A DNA stretch of 57,823 nucleotides from positions 1-57,823 of the forward strand of contig JAUQPL010000012.1 in assembly GCA_030550395.1 (NCBI GenBank). Direction: 5' to 3'. This document shows positions 79 to 42,208 of the stretch, in pieces. The DNA is from Bacteroidota bacterium (GTDB lineage: Bacteria; Bacteroidota; Ignavibacteria; Kapaibacteriales; HRBIN21). The notes below the pieces were generated by a model that worked only from the letters and a program-made list of their open reading frames with translations, ran no database searches and was not told the DNA's origin. The position numbers and the translations under genes are program-made. The stretch's first letter is position 1. Every line of letters begins with the position of its first letter.

Positions 79-118
79 ACCGGCAGGGGAAACAAAATCC
101 CCTGCCGGTTTGTATTTT
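79..118 (+). terminator. Rho-independent terminator
   Basis: A perfect 12-bp stem (79-90 pairing with 98-109) closes a 7-base loop AACAAAA and is followed by TTGTATTTTT. It lies directly after the stop of the partial T9SS cargo gene. The T-rich tail also contains a TAnnTTTG promoter-like box for the next gene. Confidence 0.9.
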
Positions 119-120
119 TG
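113..120 (+). promoter_or_regulatory. TAnnTTTG -7 promoter box (TATTTTTG)
   Basis: TATTTTTG matches the -7 element known from Bacteroidota primary-sigma promoters. It sits inside the T-tail of the preceding terminator, 40 bases before the ATG at 161. I see no TTG at the usual -33 spacing, so the call rests on the box, its position and similar boxes upstream of other genes here. Confidence 0.45.
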
Positions 121-6751: not shown

Positions 6752-6911
6752 CGGTTGCTCTTTCTGAGTAGACCCACTGACAAGTTGCAAATTTGAGGAG
6801 ACGCAAGGGGGCAAACGGGATGACTCCCTTCAGAATGTGTTCGGGAGGGAAGTGATTGAGGGATGTCGTAAGTTTGCACAAGTATTGGTCTATGGCGTGA
6901 GGAGGAGTATC

Positions 6912-7478
6912 ATGGCGGTAACCTCGCGAGATATCCCCTTAGGCATGCAAGTACCACCATTTGAGTTAGTGGATGTTGTGTCGGAAAGGAAGTACTCGCT
7001 CCGGGAGCTTAAATCGGATCGGGCGACCGTTATCATGTTTCTGTGCAACCATTGTCCCTATGTTAAGCACATCCAGCGTAAGCTTGTGGAGGTGGCTCGC
7101 GAATACATTAGCAAAGGGGTTGCTTTCATTGCCATTAGCGCGAACGATCCCGAAGCCTACCCAGAGGATTCTCCGGAGAATATGCGTCGGGTGGCGCAGG
7201 AATTGGGATATCCGTTCCCGTACCTGTTTGATGAAACGCAGGAAGTTGCCCGTGCATATGGGGCGCAGTGTACGCCGGAGTTCTATGTCACTGATGGAGA
7301 GCTCCGGTTGCTGTATCACGGGCGTTTTGATGAGTCTACACCCGGCAATGGGTTGCCGGTGACAGGAAAAGATTTGCGGGCAGCCCTGGATGCGATTCTT
7401 GCTGGACTTCCGGTGCCCTATCCGCAGTATCCGGCAATAGGGTGCAGTATTAAGTGGCGTCAGCAGGAGGTTCCGTAA
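6912..7478 (+). CDS. Thioredoxin-family redoxin (AhpC/TSA-like)
   Basis: The ATG at 6912 has a strong GAGGAGGAG just upstream; the frame open to 6837 is not needed. The 188-residue protein has a redoxin fold with an active-site motif CNHCPYVK at 45-52 (C45 and C48), a cis-proline region QCTPEFYV and no signal peptide, so it is probably cytoplasmic. CNHCPYVK marks a widespread subfamily of thiol-disulfide proteins whose partners are mostly unknown. It is followed 78 bases later by the aspartate dehydrogenase gene on the same strand. Confidence 0.88.
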   Translation: MAVTSRDIPLGMQVPPFELVDVVSERKYSLRELKSDRATVIMFLCNHCPYVKHIQRKLVEVAREYISKGVAFIAISANDPEAYPEDSPENMRRVAQELGYPFPYLFDETQEVARAYGAQCTPEFYVTDGELRLLYHGRFDESTPGNGLPVTGKDLRAALDAILAGLPVPYPQYPAIGCSIKWRQQEVP

Positions 7479-8843: not shown

Positions 8844-10259
8844 TCAGAAGCCGTGCTCAAGAACAATGCGCGCCGATCGGAGGTCCAGCCATTGTTGGCG
8901 TTTGAGGGGTGGGAGGGAAAGAGAGTTCACGGTAGCGAGCTCAGCAATGTGGTCGGCTGAAGAGCTGGATACAATGATCGTTCCCACTCCTTCCGTGTGG
9001 TGGAGCAGGGCTAGGGCCAGTTGGGCTAAGGGAACGGGTGGGATCGAGTGGTGGAGGGCATCCTCTATGACGGTGCGCAGCCGACGTGCCCGCTCCCATG
9101 CCCGAGCTGCGTAGAGGCGGGTGATGTCAGACAGCGCCTGGTGGAAGCGTTCCTTATAAGCTTCCCAGGGCTGGCGGGTTGTTTCTGTCAAGAGTGGTTC
9201 CACGCCGGCGCTCACCGAGCGGAAGCGCTCCGCCAGGTATCCCGTCTTCATGTGCAGCCAGTCTTCGTAACTGGCAAATTCGTGCCAGTGCTCTTGCAAC
9301 AGCAAGCTCAACGTGAGGAGCTCCCGCACCATATCCCGCTGGACACCATCGAGTGGGAGCTCCATGAGCGCACGCAGGAGCTGTACTTCTGTGTGAACAA
9401 ATTCCCGGAGCTGTCCCCGAATGTGCTCAACAGAGACCAGGCTACCACTTGCCGTCGTGGGTTCAGCAATCAGGACAGGACGGCCGTTCAAGCGTGCTGT
9501 AAGCGGACGGTACACGATGACGTGGAGGTGCTGCTGGCTTGCATACTCCAGCAGGGTCTGTTTCTCGACAACGGCTTCAGTTGCGATGGCTGATTCAAAG
9601 AGATTGAATGGGACTGCCAACAGGCGGCAATGGTGCTCGTCCCCGCAAATGGAACGGGCAAGCTCGAGGACCTCTGCAATGGGTATGGAGGGAATGGAGG
9701 TATCCGTGGGGAGGAGTTGCTCGGACTGGATACCGTATGCAAAAAGGCGTCCTTGCTGGCATTCTTGCTCCAGGAAGGCAAATGCCTGTTCCAAGCGACG
9801 CAGCAATTCGTGGAGCGCTTCCTCCTGGGGAATGCCCTGGGTTGTAGCCCATTGCAGGAAAACTTCGGGATGTTGGAGGAGGACCGCTATGGGGGATGCT
9901 TGTCGGAGACGGTGGTACGTTTCGGTCAGCTGCTCCCGGAGGAAGTGAGGGTGAATGCAGTGCCAGGCTCCTTCTCGCCACCGGACAAGCTCTGGATAGG
10001 GCTCGCCGCGGTGTTCCCGTTCTAATGCCCGGTGGTAGAGCATTCCTTCAATAAAGCCCAGCGAGACCAGAACAGTCGGTGTCGCCCCCAACTGCGTGCT
10101 GAGTTCCCCTAAGAGAGCTTCTCCGAAGCCATCATCGTAGCTTGTAGCAGTGGCAAAGAGATGGATGCCATGGCGCTGAGTTGCTTCAATGAGAGGACGG
10201 GCATGGTGATGGGTGCCGAAACGGCAAGTACTTACACCAAAAGCAGGAAGCAGGGACAT
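8844..10259 (-). CDS. Aldo/keto reductase-like protein with degenerate catalytic residues
   Basis: The ATG at 10259 has GGAGGA eight bases upstream and a TACTTTTG promoter-like box 36 bases upstream. The 471-residue protein resembles the aldo/keto reductase barrel: the strand with FATATSYDDGFGEALLGE corresponds to the family motif FDTAxxYGxSExxLG, and AVLLQHPEVF corresponds to the strand carrying the catalytic histidine. The catalytic aspartate is alanine here (FATA for FDTA). The strand expected to carry the catalytic lysine reads VLVSLG, with no lysine. Tyrosine and histidine are kept. The second half (about 300-440) is largely helical and not typical of the family; SSSADHIAE near the end resembles the cofactor-phosphate loop. 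It may be non-catalytic or have another reaction. Confidence 0.75.
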   Translation of the reverse strand: MSLLPAFGVSTCRFGTHHHARPLIEATQRHGIHLFATATSYDDGFGEALLGELSTQLGATPTVLVSLGFIEGMLYHRALEREHRGEPYPELVRWREGAWHCIHPHFLREQLTETYHRLRQASPIAVLLQHPEVFLQWATTQGIPQEEALHELLRRLEQAFAFLEQECQQGRLFAYGIQSEQLLPTDTSIPSIPIAEVLELARSICGDEHHCRLLAVPFNLFESAIATEAVVEKQTLLEYASQQHLHVIVYRPLTARLNGRPVLIAEPTTASGSLVSVEHIRGQLREFVHTEVQLLRALMELPLDGVQRDMVRELLTLSLLLQEHWHEFASYEDWLHMKTGYLAERFRSVSAGVEPLLTETTRQPWEAYKERFHQALSDITRLYAARAWERARRLRTVIEDALHHSIPPVPLAQLALALLHHTEGVGTIIVSSSSADHIAELATVNSLSLPPLKRQQWLDLRSARIVLEHGF

Positions 10260-10295: not shown

Positions 10296-10303
10296 CAAAA
10301 GTA
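10296..10303 (-). promoter_or_regulatory. TAnnTTTG -7 promoter box (TACTTTTG)
   Basis: Read on the minus strand, this is TACTTTTG, an exact match to the Bacteroidota -7 box. It lies 36 bases upstream of the ATG of the aldo/keto-reductase-like gene at 10259. No TTG is visible at the -33 spacing. Confidence 0.5.
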
Positions 10304-10384: not shown

Positions 10385-12235
10385 ATGGAGGAGCAGCGGA
10401 TTTGGATCCTGCCGGAGTTTTTGGCAAGTCAAATTGCAGCTGGCGAGGTTGTCCAGCGTCCGGAGTCGGTCGTCAAGGAGCTGGTAGAGAATGCTCTTGA
10501 CGCTGGAGCTACAACCATTGCGATAACGGTGCATAACGCAGGAAAACGCTTGCTCCATGTCGTGGATAACGGCTGCGGGATGAGCCGAGCAGATTTAGCG
10601 CTCTGCATTCGGCGCCATGCCACAAGCAAGATCCGTAGTGTGGAGGATCTCCATCGGATTCGGACTTTGGGCTTTCGTGGGGAGGCGTTGGCTTCCATTG
10701 CAGCTGTTTCGCAGCTGGAGATCCGTACCCGCCGGGCCGAGGAGCCGATAGGATGGCGCTTGCTTTCCGAGCCAGAGACAGAACCCCGGATTGAACCGTA
10801 CGCCGGCGAGGTAGGAACCCAGGTATTGGTGCGTAACCTTTTCTACAATATCCCTGCTCGTCGGAAATTCCTTCGTTCCGATGTGACCGAATTCCGCCTC
10901 ATAGCCGATACGGTCACGCGCTTTGTGCTGGGGCATCTGACCGTGCGCTTTGTGTTGGCGGATGAGCGTGCGCTCATTCTGGATGTTGCCCCGGGAACGC
11001 TTCTGGAGCGCTTTGCTGCCTTGTTCGGTGAGGAGCTTGCTGGTCGGATGATCCCGATTGAAACGGAGCGTGAGGGGTTCCGAATCTGGGGCATTCTTGG
11101 ACATCCGGAATGTGCCCGTCCGACGCGAGCACAGCAGTTTCTCTTCCTGAATCGCCGCTGGATCCAGCACAAGGGACTCAGTCATGCGGTGTATACAGCG
11201 TACGAGCATCTTCTAGAGAGTGGAACATACCCAATCTTCGTGCTCCACCTTGAGCTGGACCCTGAGCGCGTGGATGTCAACGTCCATCCGCAGAAACACG
11301 AGGTCAAGTTTGAGGATGAGCGCCAGGCCTTTGCAGCTGTTCTCCAGGCAGTCACGGAGGCGTTGAGACAGCACCATTTAGCGCCGGTGGTATCCCTGCA
11401 GGCGGTGCAAGACCCTATCGTAGTAGAACACACGGGGCAGGGACAGCCTCTTTTGGTCAACCGTTTGACAGGGGAATTGATTACTCCGCCGCAAGTGCCT
11501 CCTCGCTCTCAGGGACAATTTCCTCGGGGAAGGGTACCCACGCCGCTGCAGCGTGTTCACCCACAGGTAAAGGCCACACCTTCGGAGACGGCACCCCCTT
11601 TTCCGGAACTGGAGAGAGGCATTCGGTGTTGGCAGGTGCACAATACGTACATCTTTTGGGAAACCCCCGAGGGTATTCGGATTGTGGACCAACATGTTGC
11701 TCACGAACGCATTCTCTATGAGCGCTTCCGTCGGAGGTGGGAGAGCAAGCAGGCGGTACCGCAGCGGTTGTTATTCCCGTTGCCCTTGTCCTTGAGTCCA
11801 GCGCTGGTGCTTGTCGTGGAGGAGCTTTGGGATATTCTCCGGAGTCTTGGCTTTGAGTTTCAGCATCTTCCCTCGGGCGGAGTTGAGCTTGTGGCTGTCC
11901 CGAGCGATATCCCTGCAGGGCATGAAGAGCAGTTCCTCATAGAAGTGTTGGAGGCAGGCGCGGAGGGGGCAGACCCTCAGCATTCTGTGGTTGAGCGCCT
12001 TTTAGCAACCTTAGCCTGCAAGGCAGCCATCAAAGCAGGGCAGCCTCTTTCGGAACATGAGATGGTTACCCTTGTAACGGAGCTGCAGCAGTGCACGATG
12101 CCATACGTCTGTCCCCATGGGCGTCCGGTGGTGGTGGAGTTGCCTCGTGAAGAGCTAGACCGTCTCTTTGAGCGGAAACCTGTGCCCGGAGCGGGAGTCG
12201 AACCCGCACGGGGTTTACACCCCACGGGATTTTAA
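10385..12235 (+). CDS. mutL: DNA mismatch repair protein MutL
   Basis: Couples MutS mismatch recognition to downstream repair and, in this subtype, nicks DNA. The GHKL ATPase is clear: ENALDAG (35-41), DNGCGM (61-66) and TLGFRGEAL (94-102). A variable proline-rich linker spans about 365-410. The C-terminal domain has the endonuclease motif as DQHVAHERILYE (435-446), with valine where alanine is usual, plus ACKAAIKAG and CPHGRP (576-581), so nicking activity is expected. GGAG lies six bases before the ATG. The family normally ends soon after LDRLFER; here about 18 extra residues are read from the antisense strand of tRNA-Leu, and the TAA stop lies opposite the anticodon loop. Confidence 0.95.
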   Translation: MEEQRIWILPEFLASQIAAGEVVQRPESVVKELVENALDAGATTIAITVHNAGKRLLHVVDNGCGMSRADLALCIRRHATSKIRSVEDLHRIRTLGFRGEALASIAAVSQLEIRTRRAEEPIGWRLLSEPETEPRIEPYAGEVGTQVLVRNLFYNIPARRKFLRSDVTEFRLIADTVTRFVLGHLTVRFVLADERALILDVAPGTLLERFAALFGEELAGRMIPIETEREGFRIWGILGHPECARPTRAQQFLFLNRRWIQHKGLSHAVYTAYEHLLESGTYPIFVLHLELDPERVDVNVHPQKHEVKFEDERQAFAAVLQAVTEALRQHHLAPVVSLQAVQDPIVVEHTGQGQPLLVNRLTGELITPPQVPPRSQGQFPRGRVPTPLQRVHPQVKATPSETAPPFPELERGIRCWQVHNTYIFWETPEGIRIVDQHVAHERILYERFRRRWESKQAVPQRLLFPLPLSLSPALVLVVEELWDILRSLGFEFQHLPSGGVELVAVPSDIPAGHEEQFLIEVLEAGAEGADPQHSVVERLLATLACKAAIKAGQPLSEHEMVTLVTELQQCTMPYVCPHGRPVVVELPREELDRLFERKPVPGAGVEPARGLHPTGF

Positions 12236-12268
12236 GTCCCGTGCGTCTACCGGTTCCGCCATCCGGGC
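12183..12268 (-). tRNA. tRNA-Leu (anticodon UAA)
   Basis: The 86-base minus-strand gene folds as a class II tRNA. The acceptor stem is GCCCGGA with TCCGGGC and discriminator A at 12183. The anticodon stem CGGGA/TCCCG holds loop CTTAAAA, with anticodon UAA at 12234-12232. A long variable arm GGGGTGTAAACCCC and a T arm with GGTTCGACTCC follow. CCA is not encoded (the next bases are CAG after the A). It reads UUA and UUG codons. The 3' half, 53 bases, lies antisense to the last codons of mutL. A TATTTTTG box lies 12 bases upstream of its 5' end. Confidence 0.96.
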
Positions 12269-12279
12269 GGTGGCTATCG

Positions 12280-12287
12280 CAAAAATA
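12280..12287 (-). promoter_or_regulatory. TAnnTTTG -7 promoter box for tRNA-Leu (TATTTTTG)
   Basis: The minus strand reads TATTTTTG. Transcription would begin about six bases beyond the box, near 12274, just before the mature tRNA 5' end at 12268. That close fit to a stable RNA supports the box as the promoter core. No -33 TTG is seen. Confidence 0.55.
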
Positions 12288-12368: not shown

Positions 12369-12376
12369 TAATTTTG
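12369..12376 (+). promoter_or_regulatory. TAnnTTTG -7 promoter box for lepA (TAATTTTG)
   Basis: TAATTTTG lies 42 bases upstream of the lepA ATG and within the region divergent from tRNA-Leu. The distance agrees with the other boxes in this window (mostly 34-42 bases). No -33 TTG at the usual spacing. Confidence 0.5.
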
Positions 12377-12418: not shown

Positions 12419-14233
12419 ATGGTAAAGGAGTTGGCCCATATCCGCAACTTCTGCATCATTGCGCACATTGATCACGGCAAATCCACGCTGGCAGATCGCC
12501 TGCTGGAGCTCACCGGGAGTGTGAGCTCTCGGGAAATGGTCACCGATCAGATTCTGGATGACAATCCCTTGGAGCAGGAGCGGGGAATCACAATTAAGCT
12601 CCATGCAGTGCAGATGCGTTATACTGCTGCCGATGGGCAGCAGTACATTCTCAACCTGATTGACACGCCGGGTCATGTGGACTTTTCGTACGAGGTCTCG
12701 CGTTCGTTAGCAGCTTGTGAAGGAGCGCTTCTGGTAGTGGATGCAAGTCAGGGTGTGGAGGCGCAAACTATCAGCAATCTATACCTGGCTGTTGAGGCGG
12801 GGCTGGAAATTATCCCGGTCATCAACAAGATTGATTTGCCCAACGCTGCCGATATGATTCCTGCTGTGCAACAGCAGCTTGTTGATCTCATCGGGTGTCG
12901 GCCGGAGGAAATCTTTCTGATCTCTGCAAAGTATGGCACAGGAGTTGAGCGTTTGCTTCCAGCTATCATTGAGCGAATCCCACCTCCCAAGGGGGATCCC
13001 GAAGCTCCGCTGCGGGCATTGATTTTTGACTCTATGTTTGATCCGTACCGTGGGGTTATCGTCTACGTACGTCTCTTTGACGGAAGGCTTCGTGAGGGGG
13101 ACCGCGTGCTATTTTGGGCAACGCAGCAGGTGTATGAAGTCGATGAGGTGGGGGTCAAGTTACTGAAGCGGCAGAGAGCGGGGGAACTGAGTGCGGGTAT
13201 GGTTGGGTACTTTGTTGCCAACATCCGTCGCCTGCAGGATACAAAGGTTGGGGATACGGTCACCCTGGTAGACCGTCCGTGCGAACAACCGGTGCCGGGC
13301 TTCCGAGAAGTCAAACCCATGGTCTTCTGCGGTATTTATCCGGCAAATGCTGAGGATTTTGAAGCTCTGCGAGAGGCTCTGGCAAAGCTGGCGTTGAATG
13401 ATGCTGCTATCGTATACGAGCCGGAGACCTCGGCGGCTTTGGGGTTTGGATTCCGTTGCGGCTTCCTGGGATTGCTCCACATGGAAATTGTGCAAGAGCG
13501 CTTGGAGCGGGAATTCGGGCAGACAATTGTTGTCACCGTTCCCAACGTTCGCTACCAGGTGCTCAAGACTAACGGTGATGTCATCTTCGTGGACAATCCT
13601 GCCCAGATGCCCCCACCGACGCAGATAGAAGAGATCGCTGAGCCGTATATCCGTGCCCAGATTATTACGCCGACCGACTACATTGGGGCTATCCTGCGCC
13701 TCTGCATGGAGCGCCGGGGAACACAGACGGGGATGTCGTATTTGTCGCCAACGCGGGTGGATCTCCAGTTTGAGCTTCCCCTTGCGGAGGTCATCTTTGA
13801 TTTCTACGATAAGCTCAAGTCCATTTCGCAGGGCTATGCCTCTTTTGACTACGAGCTCATAGGGTATCGCCCTGGTGACTTAGTGAAGCTGGACATCCTC
13901 ATCAACGGAGAGCCGGTGGATGCTCTCTCCATGATTGTGCACCGGAGTCGGGCATACGAATGGGGACGGAAGCTCTGTGCGCGATTGCGGGAGCTTATTC
14001 CGCGACAGCTTTTTGAAGTCGTTATTCAAGCGGCGATTGGGTCCCGTGTCATTGCCCGAGAGACGATCAAACCATTGCGGAAGAATGTGTTGGCCAAATG
14101 CTATGGTGGGGATGTCACACGCAAGCGCAAGCTCTTGGAACGGCAAAAGGAAGGGAAGAAGCGGATGAAGCAGATTGGACGGGTGGAGATTCCGCAAGAG
14201 GCATTTCTGGCGGTGTTAAGTATAGAGCGGTGA
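12419..14233 (+). CDS. lepA: Elongation factor 4 (LepA), ribosome back-translocase GTPase
   Basis: The 604-residue protein is full length. The ATG at 12419 is preceded by AAGGAG at 12409-12414. The GTPase motifs are AHIDHGKST (G1), the switch region ERGITIK, DTPGH (G3) and NKIDLP (G4). Domains II and III follow, then the LepA-specific C-terminus with [18 protein letters not shown]. LepA remodels stalled or mistranslocated ribosomes, particularly under ionic or temperature stress. It is followed 11 bases later by the signal peptidase gene; the lepA-lepB order is a common bacterial arrangement. Confidence 0.97.
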
Positions 14234-28842: not shown

Positions 28843-28850
28843 CAAAGTTA
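28843..28850 (-). promoter_or_regulatory. TAnnTTTG -7 box before the rhomboid gene (TAACTTTG)
   Basis: The minus strand reads TAACTTTG, 23 bases upstream of the rhomboid ATG; its first three bases are the fbp stop codon TAA. This could be an internal operon promoter, or chance given the stop codon supplies part of the match. No -33 TTG. Confidence 0.3.
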
Positions 28851-30465: not shown

Positions 30466-30473
30466 CAAAGTTA
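30466..30473 (-). promoter_or_regulatory. TAnnTTTG -7 promoter box for usp (TAACTTTG)
   Basis: The minus strand reads TAACTTTG, 39 bases from the usp ATG, in the 77-base gap after the VWA-OmpA-SPOR gene. No TTG at the -33 spacing is seen. Position matches the other boxes. Confidence 0.5.
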
Positions 30474-30503: not shown

Positions 30504-32006
30504 TTACCACGGTCGGGCAGGGAGGGCGTGGCGCCTCCGGAGTAGGCTGGCGGTATGACGGGCTTGCTGGAGGGTGGCAAATCCCCATAGTTTGATTCGG
30601 TAGAGGGGTTCCCCGCGCTGGAGAATGGGCTCATAGTAAGCGGAATAGCCTCGTTGCTGCCAGAGTTCTACCGTGCGGCGAGCCTTCTCCTCAGATGGTT
30701 CGGTACCGAGCAAGATTTCATAGGGTAGTTCCGAAGGGCGGAGCCATCGGAACTCAAGTCGTTGATTAGCGCGTTGGTGGGCGAGCCTCTGTTCAAAGTA
30801 GAATTGAGGTTGTTGGTTCCCTTCGCTGCGGATGCGGATTTGCGCTGGAGCGGCTCCTAATTGTAGGAGGCGCTGGCGTACAGCTTGGGCACGATGAAGA
30901 CCCAATCGGGCGGGGTCTCGGGAAGCCTCATGCTGGCTGCTGTGTCCGATGAGCTCTATGGTATCCTCCGGATGAGCTCGGAGCCAGTAGGCAAGATCGC
31001 GGAGGGAAGGTTCGTAGAGTGGGGCGATCGTCGTATCTCCTGCCTCAAATAGGCATATGGTGTACCGCTTGGCAAGCGGCTCCACGATCGTCGGCTCTTC
31101 CAGCAGCAGCGATGTGGTTGCTTCTAACTCCTTGGCTTGCAGACGAAGCTGAAGGAATTTGCAGGGTTGTGGTGCCGGGAAACTTAGCTCGTAGTGGGTC
31201 TGTAAGCCCCGGAGGGTCCAGACCAGCTTCTGGATAACCAAGGATGGCTCTGCCGTGGAGAGCCACGTGTAAACTCCTCCGGTCCGTATGGCAAGTGTTC
31301 TCCAGAAAGAGCGGTAGCCCAGCATACCGCAGTGGAGGACGAGGATGGGAATCCGGAGGTTCTGGGCGGTTCGAGCAACCTCGTCAGCCGTTGTGAGGAA
31401 GGAAGCATGGTCAGCGCTTTCTGTCAACAGGAAGATAGCGCGTGGTCGCTGGGAAGGATTTTGTCGGCAGTATTCTAGCGCTCCCTGCACGATGTGGAGA
31501 GGGGCAGCCACTCCTGCCGGCGGCACTATTGGTATGGTGTCCAGCGCGGAAGGACTTAGCTCGGAACCCGAGACTGCACAAAGGGATTCGGCAGTGTAGC
31601 GGTACTGGATGATAACGAGGCGGTCGTTGGGACGGAGTTCCCTGACGAGGGCGGAGAGGAGTGCGCGGAGTGCCGAAGCAGACAGCGTTGCTGTCTCTGA
31701 GCGGTCAATGCAGAGGAGAAATTCCCATGCGGGGACGGTGGCTATGGCAGTGCTGACGGGGTATAGCCGTGGTGTATCGCTCTCGCAAAGGGCCTCTGCG
31801 TACCATCGAGGGAGCCCAGAGGGGAGAGCTGCCAAGTTCCATAGATGAGGAACCGTTACCCACAGTTTCCATTGGACTGGATCACGTTCTAGGCGCACTA
31901 CGACGGCGGGATTCTGAGCCGCTGCCAATAGAGGCAGGAGGAGCAGTCCTCCGGAAATCCACAGTTTATGGAGTTGCCTTTTCCATAACCAACAGCCCGT
32001 TGACAT
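30504..32006 (-). CDS. VWA - OmpA-like - SPOR fusion envelope protein
   Basis: The 500-residue protein starts with a signal peptide (KLWISGGLLLLPLLAAAQ). Residues about 95-275 form a von Willebrand A-like domain with a near-MIDAS DRSET (101-105). About 315-422 is an OmpA-like peptidoglycan-binding domain (IELIGHSSQ, then LHRAQAVRQRLLQLG). About 427-492 is a SPOR domain (YEILLGTEPSEEKA and YRIKLWGFATLQQA). The OmpA domain has serine where the diaminopimelate-contacting Asp of GHTD is usual, while an Arg is kept. SPOR domains bind denuded glycan strands at division sites. The protein should therefore be periplasmic and peptidoglycan-linked. It overlaps the end of the ClpB gene by 41 bases. Confidence 0.8.
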   Translation of the reverse strand: MSTGCWLWKRQLHKLWISGGLLLLPLLAAAQNPAVVVRLERDPVQWKLWVTVPHLWNLAALPSGLPRWYAEALCESDTPRLYPVSTAIATVPAWEFLLCIDRSETATLSASALRALLSALVRELRPNDRLVIIQYRYTAESLCAVSGSELSPSALDTIPIVPPAGVAAPLHIVQGALEYCRQNPSQRPRAIFLLTESADHASFLTTADEVARTAQNLRIPILVLHCGMLGYRSFWRTLAIRTGGVYTWLSTAEPSLVIQKLVWTLRGLQTHYELSFPAPQPCKFLQLRLQAKELEATTSLLLEEPTIVEPLAKRYTICLFEAGDTTIAPLYEPSLRDLAYWLRAHPEDTIELIGHSSQHEASRDPARLGLHRAQAVRQRLLQLGAAPAQIRIRSEGNQQPQFYFEQRLAHQRANQRLEFRWLRPSELPYEILLGTEPSEEKARRTVELWQQRGYSAYYEPILQRGEPLYRIKLWGFATLQQARHTASLLRRRHALPARPW

Positions 32007-33282
32007 TCCGGTCTAGGCGAATTTTATCACCGGCGCCGAACTCACCCGCCAGGATCTTCATTGCCAGTGGATTAGCAACGTAGTGTTCAATGGCACGTCG
32101 GAGAGGCCGGGCACCAAATTCAGGGTCGTACCCGATGGTTGCCAGCCACTCTAATGCCGCATCGCTAACTTCTACATCTATTCCGCGCTGCTGGAGGCGT
32201 TGTCGGAGCCGTTCCAACTGGAGGCGGGCGATCTGCTTGACTTCGGAGAGTAAGAGCGGCTTGAAGATGATAATCTCGTCAATCCGATTGAGGAATTCCG
32301 GACGGAAGCGTTGTCGCAGGAGTCCTAGAATCGGCTCACGGAGACGCTCCATAATGTGGGAGCGGTTGCTTTCGGTAAGCCCACCGAGAGCTTCCTGGAT
32401 GAGCTCTGTGCCGATGTTGGAAGTCATGATGATGAGAGTGTTTCGGAAGTTGACGGTTCGCCCTTTGCTGTCGGTGAGACGTCCATCTTCGAGGACTTGC
32501 AGCAGCACGTTGAATACGTCAGGGTGGGCTTTTTCAATCTCGTCAAACAGGACGACGGCGTACGGGCGGTTGCGGACAGCTTCGGTAAGTTGCCCGCCCT
32601 CTTCATAGCCGACGTAGCCGGGAGGGGCTCCGATGAGGCGGGAGACGGAGTGCTTTTCCATGTACTCGCTCATGTCAAGCCGGATGAGGGCGTTCTCGTC
32701 GTCGAAGAGAAATTCTGCAAGTGCCCGTGCCATCTCTGTTTTACCGACCCCAGTGGTGCCGAGGAAGATGAAGGAGCCCAAAGGGCGGTTGGGGTCTTGG
32801 AGACCTGCTCGGGAACGGCGGACGGCGTTTGCAATGGCGTGGACGGCATCCTCCTGGTCCACAATGCGCCGGTGGAGCCGCTCTTCCATGTGCAGGAGCT
32901 TTTCCCGCTCGCCTTCCAGCATACGATGGACGGGAATACCGGTCCATTTTGCGACGACTTCAGCGATGTCCTCCGCATCCACCTCTTCCTTAAGCATACG
33001 TCCGGTCTGTTCCAGCTGTTGATTGTACTGCTGCAGTTGGCGTTCTAACTCGGGGATTCGCCCGTAGCGGATTTCAGCCACACGTCCGTAATCCCCCTGC
33101 CGTTCGGCTTCGGCGGCAGCAAGGCGTGCCTGGTCAATCTGTGCCTTGAGCGAGCGGATATGCTGGAGAATTGCCTTCTCCTGCTCCCACCGTTGGCGCA
33201 ATTGCTCGTATTCAGCCCGGAGCTGAGTCAGTTCTGCTTCAATTTCTTCTAAACGCTGCTTCGTTGCTGCTATGCTGTCCAT
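31966..33282 (-). CDS. clpB: Half-length ClpB: partial middle domain plus second AAA+ domain
   Basis: The 438-residue product aligns with only the C-terminal half of ClpB. It starts inside the coiled-coil middle domain (KQRLEEIEAELTQLRAEYE), continues through IRYGRIPELE and AKWTGIPVHRM, and has a full NBD2: Walker A GTTGVGKT (175-182), pore loop GYVGYEEGG (222-230), Walker B LFDE (245-248), sensor 1 TSN, Arg finger R333 and sensor 2 GAR (390-392). The N-domain and NBD1, about 430 residues, are absent. Upstream DNA is the lemA promoter region, so no remnant is adjacent. The frame opens at a TTG (33360), but those 26 residues are not ClpB-like. No good ribosome site precedes ATG 33282. Full ClpB disaggregates proteins with DnaK; this form may not. 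Confidence 0.88.
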   Translation of the reverse strand: MDSIAATKQRLEEIEAELTQLRAEYEQLRQRWEQEKAILQHIRSLKAQIDQARLAAAEAERQGDYGRVAEIRYGRIPELERQLQQYNQQLEQTGRMLKEEVDAEDIAEVVAKWTGIPVHRMLEGEREKLLHMEERLHRRIVDQEDAVHAIANAVRRSRAGLQDPNRPLGSFIFLGTTGVGKTEMARALAEFLFDDENALIRLDMSEYMEKHSVSRLIGAPPGYVGYEEGGQLTEAVRNRPYAVVLFDEIEKAHPDVFNVLLQVLEDGRLTDSKGRTVNFRNTLIIMTSNIGTELIQEALGGLTESNRSHIMERLREPILGLLRQRFRPEFLNRIDEIIIFKPLLLSEVKQIARLQLERLRQRLQQRGIDVEVSDAALEWLATIGYDPEFGARPLRRAIEHYVANPLAMKILAGEFGAGDKIRLDRNVNGLLVMEKATP

Positions 33283-33392
33283 TGCCGAGATGAACTCTAC
33301 CAAGGAAGACCTATCGGTGAGACGAATGGGGTGTACTATTCGGTGTAAATTGTTCGTCAATCGGGCTGCTTGTAGGAGGGAAGGAGCCAGTC

Positions 33393-34975: not shown

Positions 34976-35006
34976 TTGCGTAGACAGGGGGAAAAGTGTA
35001 TTTTTG
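34976..35006 (+). promoter_or_regulatory. Bacteroidota-type promoter, TTG - N20 - TATTTTTG
   Basis: TTG at 34976-34978 and TATTTTTG at 34999-35006 are 20 bases apart, matching the known -33/-7 arrangement. It is the only one here with both parts at normal spacing. It predicts transcription from about 35012, giving a short leader of about 30 bases, with GGAG and TAGG before the ATG at 35041. Confidence 0.7.
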
Positions 35007-35040: not shown

Positions 35041-38000
35041 ATGACGTGGGCACGGTGCTTTGCTGCTGTGACGTTGGTGGTAGCGTCCTTTGGGGGCTAT
35101 CGAGGGAATGCCCAAGAGCAGGTGGAAATCTTGGGGGGGCGGGAGTACTGGCTGAGCTTCCCGCATTCGTGGGTCTATCCCAGTGAACAAGCACGGGGTA
35201 TCTCAGCTTTGCAACTATGGGTTGCTTCCCGAGAAGCGGCCAAGGTCCAGGTTTATCTCAATGGCGGGCAGACGTTGTACCAGGAATTTACCACGCAGCC
35301 CAAGAAGACCTTCGTTGTCGCTATTCCGATGGATCACATGAATATCGATGCCGGCGTCGTGACGGACAAAGGTATCCGCGTGGTGGCAAACAAACCGATT
35401 GTGGTTACTGGCTACGTCAGCTTCACGATCTCGGGGGAGGCCTTCATGTGCATTCCCGTAGAAGCGCTGGGGAAGCGGTACTATACGCTGAACATGTACC
35501 AAGATTGTGTGGGTAGTGAGTATCGCCCCGCGCAAATCCTCATCATCGCTACGCGGGATAACACGATTGTCCGCTACTACCCAACAACGGAGACCAGCGA
35601 TGGCGTGCGCCCGGGACAGCATAAGGAGATTCGCCTCAACCGAGGACAGACGTACCTTATTAAGGCGAAAATTGATCCTCGCTACAACCAGGATTGGAAA
35701 ACAGACTTGACGGGCACCTACATTGAGGCGACGGAGCCGATTGCGGTCATCTCCGGGCATACGAAAGGATCATATCCACGGTACTCGTGCACTATGCTAA
35801 GTACGCCGGCCCACTTCATGCGGAATTCTCTCATGGACATGATGTGGCCGGTGGAGTTATGGGGGACGATGTACATTTCCGCCCCGATTATGTATAAGAA
35901 CCGTCCTCGCAATGGGGTGGATATCGATGACGCGGGCGACCTGATTCGGTTCGTGGCCTCGGAGGACAACACCATCATTGAGCAGCTGCGGCAGGATGGC
36001 TCACAGCAGTGGCAACAGATTAGCCCACCTCTGCGCCGTGGTCAATGGTTCAATATCAGCGCTCAGGAGTATGCGGCAGCCTATCGGGCCAACAAACCGA
36101 TCTTGGTCGGGCAGTATGGGAAGGCGTGGCGCCTAACAGCGGTCAACCCAATTATCGGTAAGGAGATCGAAGAACCGCAGAATCCTCCGCGCAACGGGGA
36201 AGGGATGCTCATGTGCCTGACTCCGCGGGAGCGGTGGGCAACGTACACCACCTTCTACTCGCCACCGGGGATGGACAACTTCTTCATGATCACTTTTGAG
36301 ATGGACCGGGTGGACAGTATCTACTTTGATGGTGTTCGCCTGCGGAACAAGTTCAGTGGCGGCATTAAGCCTGTGCAGGGAACCAAGTATGGCTATGTGG
36401 TGGCGATTGTCCCACCAGGTGACCACACGGTGGAGGGCAGGAGCGGGACACAGTTTGCTGTGTACGCTTATGGGAACTTGGACCTCAGCAAGAATGGATT
36501 TGCTTACGGTTATCCGACGGGCATCAACTACGCTGTCCGCTGTGAGGATACAGTCTTGATAACCGACCGGGAGGAGTGCGGCAATATCACAGGGCAGGTA
36601 GAGGTGCGTCCGCTGGGTAGCGAGACGGAATGTGCGCGCATCTTCTCCGTGGCGTTGGATACCTCGGATAACTACGAACTGGTCCTTCCCGAAGACTTCC
36701 GTCCTAGCCAGAGTCAGCGCACGTCGTTTGAACTGCGGGTTATCGAGCCTCGGAAAGATGCTTACGCGGTTCTGGAAGTAATTACGCGTTCGGGTAAGCG
36801 GATTGTGAAGGAGTATCGGTATGTCGCTGAAGAAGTTGTGGCCGAACCACCTGTTGTGAACTTTGGATTGCAGCCGTATGGGCAACCAGTTGAACAAACT
36901 GTGATAGTACGCAACCCCAAACCACGGCAAGTAACGGTGAAGCGCCTGTACTTGAAAGCGGGGCTGCAAGAATTCCAGATCATTGAACCCAAGACCTTCC
37001 CGTTGGTCCTCCAACCAGCAGGACAAGCAGGTGACCGGGTAGAAGTACGGATTCAAGGTGCGGCGCTTGTTGCTCAGGAGCGGGTAGACTCGCTTTATGC
37101 AGAGCTGAGCTGCTATCCAGCGCCCGTTGCAGAGCTGCGCATTCGTGGGAATGAGCCTATCATGTGGGTGGATGATGCTGACTTTGGACAGGTCCCCGTC
37201 GGTAGCGAGCGGATGCGCTTGGTGCGTATTGAAAGTCGAGGGCAGATCCCGCTGGAAATTACCGCTGTGGACTGGTCCGATAAAACACACTTCCGCACCG
37301 AGGGCCTGCTGGAAGCTTTGCCGTTGCGGCTGGATCCGGGGCAGAGCTACACCTTCCGCGTCTACTATAAGCCCACAGTAGCCGGTCAGGCAGATCAGAC
37401 ACGGGCGGTCTTTACCGCCAATGCAACGAGGATTAAGCTGTATTCCGACTGGAAGGGCACCGGTATTGAAGCCAATGTGACCATCCAGGGCTATGACTGG
37501 GGTAAGCGGCGAGTTGCTGATCCGTACGCTCGGCTGGATGACCCCAACTACGGCTATCGGGGTGAGGTCATTGTCGTGGTCACAGGGAATACACCGCTGA
37601 ACAATGTGGATGTCGTTGTAGAGGACGACCCGCAGTATCCGAACGATCGGCTTGCTTTCCGTGTAGATAAGACCAGTTTGCCTCCGCAGCTGCAACCGGG
37701 CGTTCGGATTACCTTACCAGCTTACTTTAAGCCGGTAGAGGAACGGGAATATCGGGCGCGGGTAATTGTTCGGGGCTACGACAATAATGAGCTGCGGGAA
37801 GCCGAAGATCTACTCGTCGGCATCGGTATTCAACCGCACGTGGCAGCTGAAGGGCGTGATTTTGGTACTCTAATGGTCGGGCAGTCCAAGCAGGATGTTG
37901 CTCCCATTTACAGCAATGGGACGATGGAGCTGACGGTCCGGGATTTGCAGATTGTTGGTCCTGATGCAGACGCTTTCCAAGTTGAAGGGAGCTTCCTGCA

Positions 38001-39369: not shown

Positions 39370-39377
39370 TAAGTTTG
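39370..39377 (+). promoter_or_regulatory. TAnnTTTG -7 promoter box (TAAGTTTG)
   Basis: TAAGTTTG lies 16 bases upstream of the ATG at 39394, closer than the other boxes, giving a leader of about ten bases. It follows directly after the surface-protein terminator, where a new promoter is expected. No -33 TTG. Confidence 0.4.
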
Positions 39378-39393: not shown

Positions 39394-39789
39394 ATGGCAC
39401 ATTTGGTAGCGATTCGGCGGGCTCGTCCCGAGCTCCTTTACTTCCGGTGGGATGATGGGTTGGAGGTATATCTGCCGATAGCTGTGCTGCGGGAGCGGTG
39501 CCCGTGTGCCTTCTGTCGTGGAGAGCAGGTATTTGACCGGACTATTCTGCCGGTGCGGGTTATCACACCTGGCATGAACGAGTTGGTAGCTCTGGAGCCG
39601 GTAGGCAACTACGGGCTCCGGGCAGTTTGGAAAGATGGACACAACACAGGAATTTATCCATGGGAGCTACTGCGGCAGCTGTGCGAAACAGAGGGATTGC
39701 GCCAAGAGTCAGTGGGTCAAACCTTAAGGGAACCTCCCGTACGCCATGACGGTGGTACAAAAACGGAGCCTGAGAGCGCCGAGAGGTAG
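39394..39789 (+). CDS. DUF971 domain protein
   Basis: The 131-residue protein has the DUF971 fold (residues about 10-100): [25 protein letters not shown] and a late [19 protein letters not shown]. This domain is also found at the N-terminus of gamma-butyrobetaine hydroxylase, and free-standing copies are linked by neighbourhood to iron-sulfur cluster or Mrp-type proteins. CPCAFC could bind metal. The C-terminal ~30 residues overlap the urocanate hydratase gene by 44 bases. Its function here is unknown. Confidence 0.88.
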
Positions 39790-41413: not shown

Positions 41414-41503
41414 CAGGTTGGTGTAACAAAAGTGTCACGCGAAGGGTCTAAACGACAGACGATGTACGAGAGTCCAATAACACAGCAGCAGTCCGAGGAA
41501 CCG

Positions 41504-42208
41504 ATGACGATGATGGAGCAAGTGCCCAAGGGAAAGGGATCGCTCAAGCGGCGGAGCAAGGGGCGGGTACAGATACCGCCGGAGCAGGTGCCGCCAGAGC
41601 GGCGAGCCCAGTATGAGGCTCTGGTGGCGGAGATTGAACGCCTCTATCGCACGGACCGGAAGCGGTTTCTGGGGTTTATCCGGCAGCGTGTCCGTACGCA
41701 AGAGGAGGCGGAGGATATCCTCCAGGATGTGTTTGCCAATGTCTTAGCGGCGGCGGCAACCGTTGAGGGACCTATTGAGAATGTTGCCTCGTGGGTCTTT
41801 ACTGCTGTGCGCAACCGGATCATAGACTCGTATCGGAAGAAGCGTGCGGAAAGCTTTTCAGATGTGCAAACACCGGTGCAGCAGGAGGAGGGGATGGAAA
41901 GTTTTGAGAGCTTGCTGCCCGATGTTAGCTATGGTCCAGAACGGGAGCATTTGCGTCGGCGCATCTGGCAAGCAATTCAAGAGGCGTTGGCAGAGCTTCC
42001 GCCAGAGCAGCGGGAGGTGTTTGTCAAGAACGAGTTTGAAGGGGTTTCCTTCCGGGAAATGGCGGAGGAGACGGGTATCAATATCAACACGCTACTGGCA
42101 CGGAAGCGTTATGCTGTCCTCCACCTGCGCAAGAAGCTCAAGTGGCTCTACGATGAGCTCAACGCGCGCTACGAGGTTCTGGAGCACTACGACGAGCATA
42201 TGAACTGA
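41504..42208 (+). CDS. ECF-like sigma-70 family RNA polymerase sigma factor
   Basis: From ATG 41504, with GAGG seven bases upstream, it has 234 residues. The frame is open to a GTG at 41432, without a ribosome site. A basic N-terminal tail (KGKGSLKRRSKGR) precedes sigma region 2 (FLGFIRQRVRTQEEAEDILQ) and region 4 (LPPEQREVFVKNEFEG, then a helix-turn-helix GININTLLARKRY). There is no region 3, so it is of the ECF/group 4 type. No anti-sigma factor gene is adjacent. A terminator follows 21 bases after the stop. Confidence 0.9.
   Translation: MTMMEQVPKGKGSLKRRSKGRVQIPPEQVPPERRAQYEALVAEIERLYRTDRKRFLGFIRQRVRTQEEAEDILQDVFANVLAAAATVEGPIENVASWVFTAVRNRIIDSYRKKRAESFSDVQTPVQQEEGMESFESLLPDVSYGPEREHLRRRIWQAIQEALAELPPEQREVFVKNEFEGVSFREMAEETGININTLLARKRYAVLHLRKKLKWLYDELNARYEVLEHYDEHMN

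Follow-up and report, generated by a model that had tools for sequence, protein, structure and literature searches.

The sigma ABfr promoter of Bacteroides fragilis is described as TTTG(-33)/TAnnTTTG(-7) (PMC6847099, PMC7366714). The promoter set published for Flavobacterium johnsoniae is described as having a nearly invariant -7 box, a -33 element that is hardly visible, and leaders of about 33 nt (PMC6847099), and TAnnTTTG classes together with a CGT-type ECF class have been reported for Flavobacterium psychrophilum (PMC9723704). Thus, the promoter type is already known, and a weak -33 element is already published for Flavobacterium. A literature search on promoters of Kapabacteria and Ignavibacteria returned no promoter study among the matches listed, and none with TAnnTTTG. 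Here, we examined a window of 57,823 nucleotides, which is the whole of contig C10 of a relative of Candidatus Kapabacteria (G000; 15 contigs with a total of 1.94 Mb; completeness 99%). By MutL, its nearest named relatives are Candidatus Kapabacteria S1_Bin_METABAT__74_1 (74%), Candidatus Kapaibacterium SKYG35 (71%), and bacterium HR21 (70%), whose sigma matches coincide with those of G152, G149, and G148, three genomes of the genus of G000. The boxes found in G000 are very probably -7 elements read by its housekeeping sigma A, which would use a strict word and no conserved -33 TTG. The verified presence of the box in Kapabacteria, its strictness, and a difference in -33 coupling inside one order are new.

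Boxes in the window and their conservation

The original prediction listed eight matches to the Bacteroidota -7 box TAnnTTTG. All eight are present, with positions and strands as given, but the window contains 20 matches, and the promoter-placed box at 6869 on the plus strand was missing from the list. The total itself is not unusual, as shuffled sequences gave 14.6 matches and 12 of 100 shuffles reached 20; what is unusual is the placement. Nine boxes lie in the 3,766 non-coding bases (6.5% of the window) and 11 in the 54,057 coding bases, and the nine compare with 0.77 expected (P about 1e-7), which agrees with the earlier view that clustering in the upstream gaps is not due to chance. The non-coding boxes and the features beside them are as follows.

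113 to 120, plus strand: box TATTTTTG, 40 bases before the ATG at 161, after a terminator-like inverted repeat (80-90/98-108)
6869 to 6876, plus strand: box TAAGTTTG, 35 bases before the ATG at 6912
10296 to 10303, minus strand: box TACTTTTG, 36 bases before the gene starting at 10259
12280 to 12287, minus strand: box TATTTTTG, 11 bases before the 5' end of tRNA-Leu(TAA) (12182-12268)
12369 to 12376, plus strand: box TAATTTTG of lepA, 42 bases before the ATG at 12419
28843 to 28850, minus strand: doubtful box TAACTTTG, 23 bases before a start codon, overlapping the stop codon of the FBPase gene
30466 to 30473, minus strand: box TAACTTTG, 39 bases before the Usp gene (start 30426)
34976 to 34978, plus strand: TTG, the proposed -33 element, 20 bases before the box at 34999
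34987 to 34998, plus strand: G/A-rich tract GGGGGAAAAGTG, directly upstream of the box at 34999; a congener has GTGGGGAAAAATTG at the equivalent place
34999 to 35006, plus strand: box TATTTTTG, 34 bases before the ATG at 35041 of a gene for a protein with IgGFc_binding and ASH domains
39370 to 39377, plus strand: box TAAGTTTG, 16 bases before the ATG at 39394 of a gene with a GBBH-like_N domain

The spacing of 34 to 42 bases between box and start codon that had been proposed therefore holds at 113, 10296, 12369, 30466, and 34999 but not at 28843 or 39370, and the distance of 12 bases given for the tRNA gene is in fact 11.

At seven of the eight window sites that could be compared (6869, 10296, 12280, 12369, 30466, 34999, and 39370), the box is kept in at least one congener, with L079 and G152, which are one genome, counted once. 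The box at 113 stood outside this comparison because the match in the relative began inside the gene. The 8-mer at 10296 is identical in all four congeners (L079-L082), and the box at 12280 is kept in three of four, as TATTTTCG in L079 and L080 and as TAAATTTG in L082, while it was not seen in L081. Two of three congeners, L079 (the same genome as G152) and L080, keep the box at 6869, which is not found in L081; the lepA box at 12369 is identical in L079 and L082, and the boxes at 30466, 34999, and 39370 are conserved in G152. The box at 28843 has no counterpart in G152, and its TAA is the stop codon of the upstream FBPase gene; for these two reasons it is probably a chance match. Directly upstream of the box at 113, a perfect 11-bp inverted repeat (80-90/98-108) with a 7-base loop leads into a T-rich stretch, which at the same time forms the box. 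The bases at 80-120 may belong to a terminator and a promoter at once, with the box at 113 being in part a terminator T-tract.

Placement and strictness of the box across the genome

The genome-wide sample comprised 849,557 bases (44%) of G000 with 699 called genes (92% coding), and gene starts were taken from a simple purpose-built gene finder trained on the sequence itself. Non-coding DNA (69,292 bases) held 138 occurrences of TAnnTTTG and coding DNA (780,265 bases) held 164, which makes the density 9.5-fold higher in the former; the reversed word, a control of the same composition, occurred 15 and 148 times, respectively. A gap of 40 bases or more precedes 343 genes; of the 106 box matches in front of these, 65 fell at -50 to -31, compared with 3 of 9 for the reversed word. 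Boxes were oriented toward the gene in 83 cases and away from it in 15, and the distance from the first base of the box to the start codon had a median of 41 and quartiles of 36 and 46. Thus, the motif search relative to start codons that had been suggested as a check found the box enriched over controls about 30 to 50 bases before start codons in 44% of the genome. Stable-RNA genes are preceded by it as well. Eighteen tRNA genes were found in the sample, two of them directly behind another tRNA; among the 16 that are first in their cluster, 12 carried an exact box within 60 bases and 3 carried TAATTTCG (15 of 16 together), which left one tRNA-Arg with neither. As the exact box was present upstream of just 87 of the 343 candidate genes, the remainder must depend on looser boxes or on promoters of other classes.

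The word is strict. When every other letter was tried at each of the six fixed positions, TAnnTTCG alone among the 18 variants was clearly enriched (15 near genes and 1 in the far control zone), and the next highest variant near genes, GAnnTTTG, gave 9 and 4. The neighborhood of the box is also biased: in 98 box-aligned sites of G000, a G or C directly preceded the box in 88 and a C or T directly followed it in 91, and A occurred at the three preceding bases only 3, 6, and 4 times. G made up 40.5% of the bases at -13 to -7 compared with 29.1% at -35 to -17 in these sites (p 6e-8), and 37.6% compared with 30.7% in 38 sites of congeners (p 0.047), so that the G-rich stretch is modest, weaker in congeners, and without a fixed spacing. 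A diffuse AG-rich spacer word returned by the motif search had no fixed place and is not claimed as an element.

In the whole G000 genome, box and reversed box stood at 671 to 395, the highest ratio among 148 genomes, but this figure can be used only loosely; as a measure of promoter use, the ratio was rejected because it depends too much on codon usage and is uninformative in AT-rich genomes. In the small samples of G124, G132, G003, G005, and G065, the box did not stand out clearly as the main word, and G075 was left out, as the gene finder called one gene there.

A second promoter-like word, TTCGTC, had 20 matches in the -50 to -31 bins of the same 343 genes and showed the same distance peak. 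It is probably the -10 element of an ECF-type sigma factor. Its matches in the window are as follows.

23305, plus strand: TTCGTC
33321 to 33326, minus strand: TTCGTC
33353 to 33358, plus strand: TTCGTC
49985, plus strand: TTCGTC

Between the divergent genes 31965-33282 and lemA, TTCGTC faces both ways, and this double arrangement is kept in G152. The window also holds an ECF-type sigma gene (41462-42208, plus strand; Sigma70_r2 match of 48 bits), which adjoins the urocanase gene.

The sigma factor and the -33 region

The best sigma match in G000 was a 290-residue RpoD-like protein encoded outside the window (G000:C5:13070-13939). It is the only RpoD-like sigma of the genome, the second match being 33% identical and FliA-like. 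Its region 2.4 reads WWIRQSILQAL, as it does in 6 of 6 congeners and in 34 of 34 other loci (one genome counted twice), whereas SigA proteins of other phyla read WWIRQAIT.AI in the PDB alignment. The proposed comparison of RpoD region 2 with Bacteroidota sigma A thus gave the same region 2.4 as in all relatives aligned, in support of a sigma factor of the Bacteroidota type. The long N-terminal region 1.1 is absent, the protein having 290 amino acids and the alignment with PDB SigA starting at residue 18. The recognition helix of region 4.2, TRERVRQ, is unchanged in 40 of 40 loci, so the sigma should have kept the ability to contact DNA near -33. Two features set the genus apart. At the border of regions 2.4 and 2.5, 6 of 6 genus sigmas have EQARLIR compared with EQSRI(V/I)R in 34 of 34 others, and the segment RH(A/T/N)(S/T)RS after the region 4.2 helix is missing in 6 of 6 genus sigmas and present in 32 of 34 others, a regularity of the present alignment rather than a published criterion.

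As had been noted, the TTG at 34976-34978 lies 20 bases before the box at 34999, and this is the sole box of the window with a TTG at a spacing of 19 to 21. However, its presence is no more than chance would allow (P 0.39 for one or more such TTG among nine boxes), and in G152 the orthologous promoter retains both the box and the G/A-rich stretch but lacks the TTG. Among 136 pooled sites, TTG occurred at offsets -26 to -18 in 13 compared with 17.8 after shuffling, TTTG in 4 compared with 4.4, and TTGAC in 0 compared with 1.0, so none was enriched. A TTG planted at the expected spacing was seen in 99 of 100 trials when 15% of sites carried it and in 71 of 100 when 10% did. Across the whole of G000, 44 boxes had a TTG at 19 to 21 bases and 42 at the control spacing of 31 to 33 (ratio 1.05; 95% interval, 0.67 to 1.64). 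The original prediction of a Bacteroidota-type promoter with a weak -33 requirement was therefore right about the box but understated the other half: no TTTG or TTG element at -33 is detectable. A -33 TTTG/TTG is an optional feature of the promoter family, since the set published for F. johnsoniae hardly shows it either (PMC6847099).

The same TTG spacing comparison was made row by row for 36 genomes of the order and class and for G073 and G018, all from the draw of 148. Nine of the 36 showed a significant excess of TTG (G023, G101, G105, G109, G014, G055, G093, G097, and G120), with the strongest coupling in G014 (47 to 6), G097 (31 to 6), and G105 (69 to 14); in another class of the phylum, the counts were 83 to 8 for G073 and 73 to 14 for G018. 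The measure thus detects a coupled TTG where one exists, and the order Kapaibacteriales includes genomes both with and without -33 TTG coupling. Samples of at most 200 kb of G059, G073, and G105 gave 7 to 10 sites each, too few for a -33 test. One member of the order, G043, has an ordinary region 4 that includes the RHASRS-type segment, but its coupling was not significant (46 to 37); loss of the segment was therefore not established as the explanation for loss of the -33 element, and the sigma changes specific to the genus need not be the cause. A more elaborate scenario, which we regard as doubtful, is that the sigma of the genus was remodelled (EQARLIR for EQSRIVR and a KHMRQVQ-like sequence for RHASRSK) and that its promoters shifted from two sites to one, held by the strict -7 word, the G/C neighbor, and the G-rich spacer, whereas a coupled -33 TTG would have been retained in sister genera of the order.

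It is conceivable, though improbable, that a -33 element is present in a degenerate form or another sequence that counts of TTG miss. The intact region 4.2 helix would suit such an element, a width-6 motif in -36 to -17 scored 29.7 compared with at most 18.8 in shuffles, and TTG exactly 15 bases upstream of the box was over-represented in G000 (8 of 98 sites, with 1.7 expected). However, the width-6 motif is AGC-like and spread evenly over positions, as compositional bias would be, no position from -35 to -16 carries more than 0.1 bit, and the TTG at -15 did not recur in congeners (1 of 38 sites). The boxes themselves might be chance words in AT-richer gaps or terminator T-tracts of upstream genes, as the ordinary raw count in the window, the perfect hairpin directly before the box at 113, and the unconserved overlap with a stop codon at 28843 would suggest; yet the reversed word, although identical in composition, shows no enrichment, and the position, strand, placement before tRNA genes, and conservation of the boxes are all as expected of promoters. 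As a general account this is refuted and very unlikely, and it may hold for 28843 and in part for 113. There is equally little reason to think that an alternative sigma factor reads some of the boxes. The genome encodes several ECF-type sigma factors, one of them in the window (41462-42208), but the box stands before tRNA genes, lepA, and other housekeeping genes, G000 has a distinct TTCGTC class, and ECF -10 words are reported to be of the CGT type in F. psychrophilum (PMC9723704).

We therefore favor sigma A as the reader of the boxes. This RpoD-like sigma would recognize a strict TAnnTT(T/C)G, mostly TA(A/T)TTTTG, with a G or C directly before and a C or T directly after it, and a G-rich stretch 7 to 13 bases upstream would perhaps aid recognition, in which a -33 TTG would play no part. 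If the spacing of the published Flavobacterium data applies, transcription would start a few bases past the box and give leaders of about 25 to 30 bases.

Comparison with described promoters

These results extend the Bacteroidota -7 box to Candidatus Kapabacteria, with statistics over 44% of a genome, and provide a promoter rule usable for annotation and expression in this group. Because one order holds genomes with and without -33 coupling, comparison of close relatives would allow a test of what sigma region 4 does at a promoter with a single box. In the extended -10 promoters of Escherichia coli sigma70, the upstream hexamer is dispensable owing to extra contacts beside the -10 box. The Kapabacteria promoters are similar in that no upstream hexamer appears to be needed, but they have no TGn motif, and both the sequence and the sigma residues are different.

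The B. fragilis sigma ABfr promoter, as described, has the identical -7 word and a sigma without a long N-terminal part, and the Kapabacteria promoters differ from it in showing no enrichment of TTTG or TTG at -33. Promoter motif 1 of Bacteroides thetaiotaomicron is likewise reported as the main class and resembles the sigma ABfr promoter; it was mapped experimentally, while the Kapabacteria promoters are deduced from sequence (PMC7366714). The promoters described for F. johnsoniae share the strict -7 box, a G that is disfavored at the two free positions, and a -33 element that is hardly visible (PMC6847099). However, AT-rich motifs are reported there at -18 and -28 (PMC6847099), and the Kapabacteria promoters have instead the G-rich stretch and the G or C beside the box. 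Another difference concerns translation signals, as Bacteroidetes are described as lacking Shine-Dalgarno words (PMC6847099): Shine-Dalgarno-like words preceded 27% of the genes in the G000 sample compared with 14% in a shifted control, about twofold over background, and reached 39 to 50% in G073, G124, and G132.
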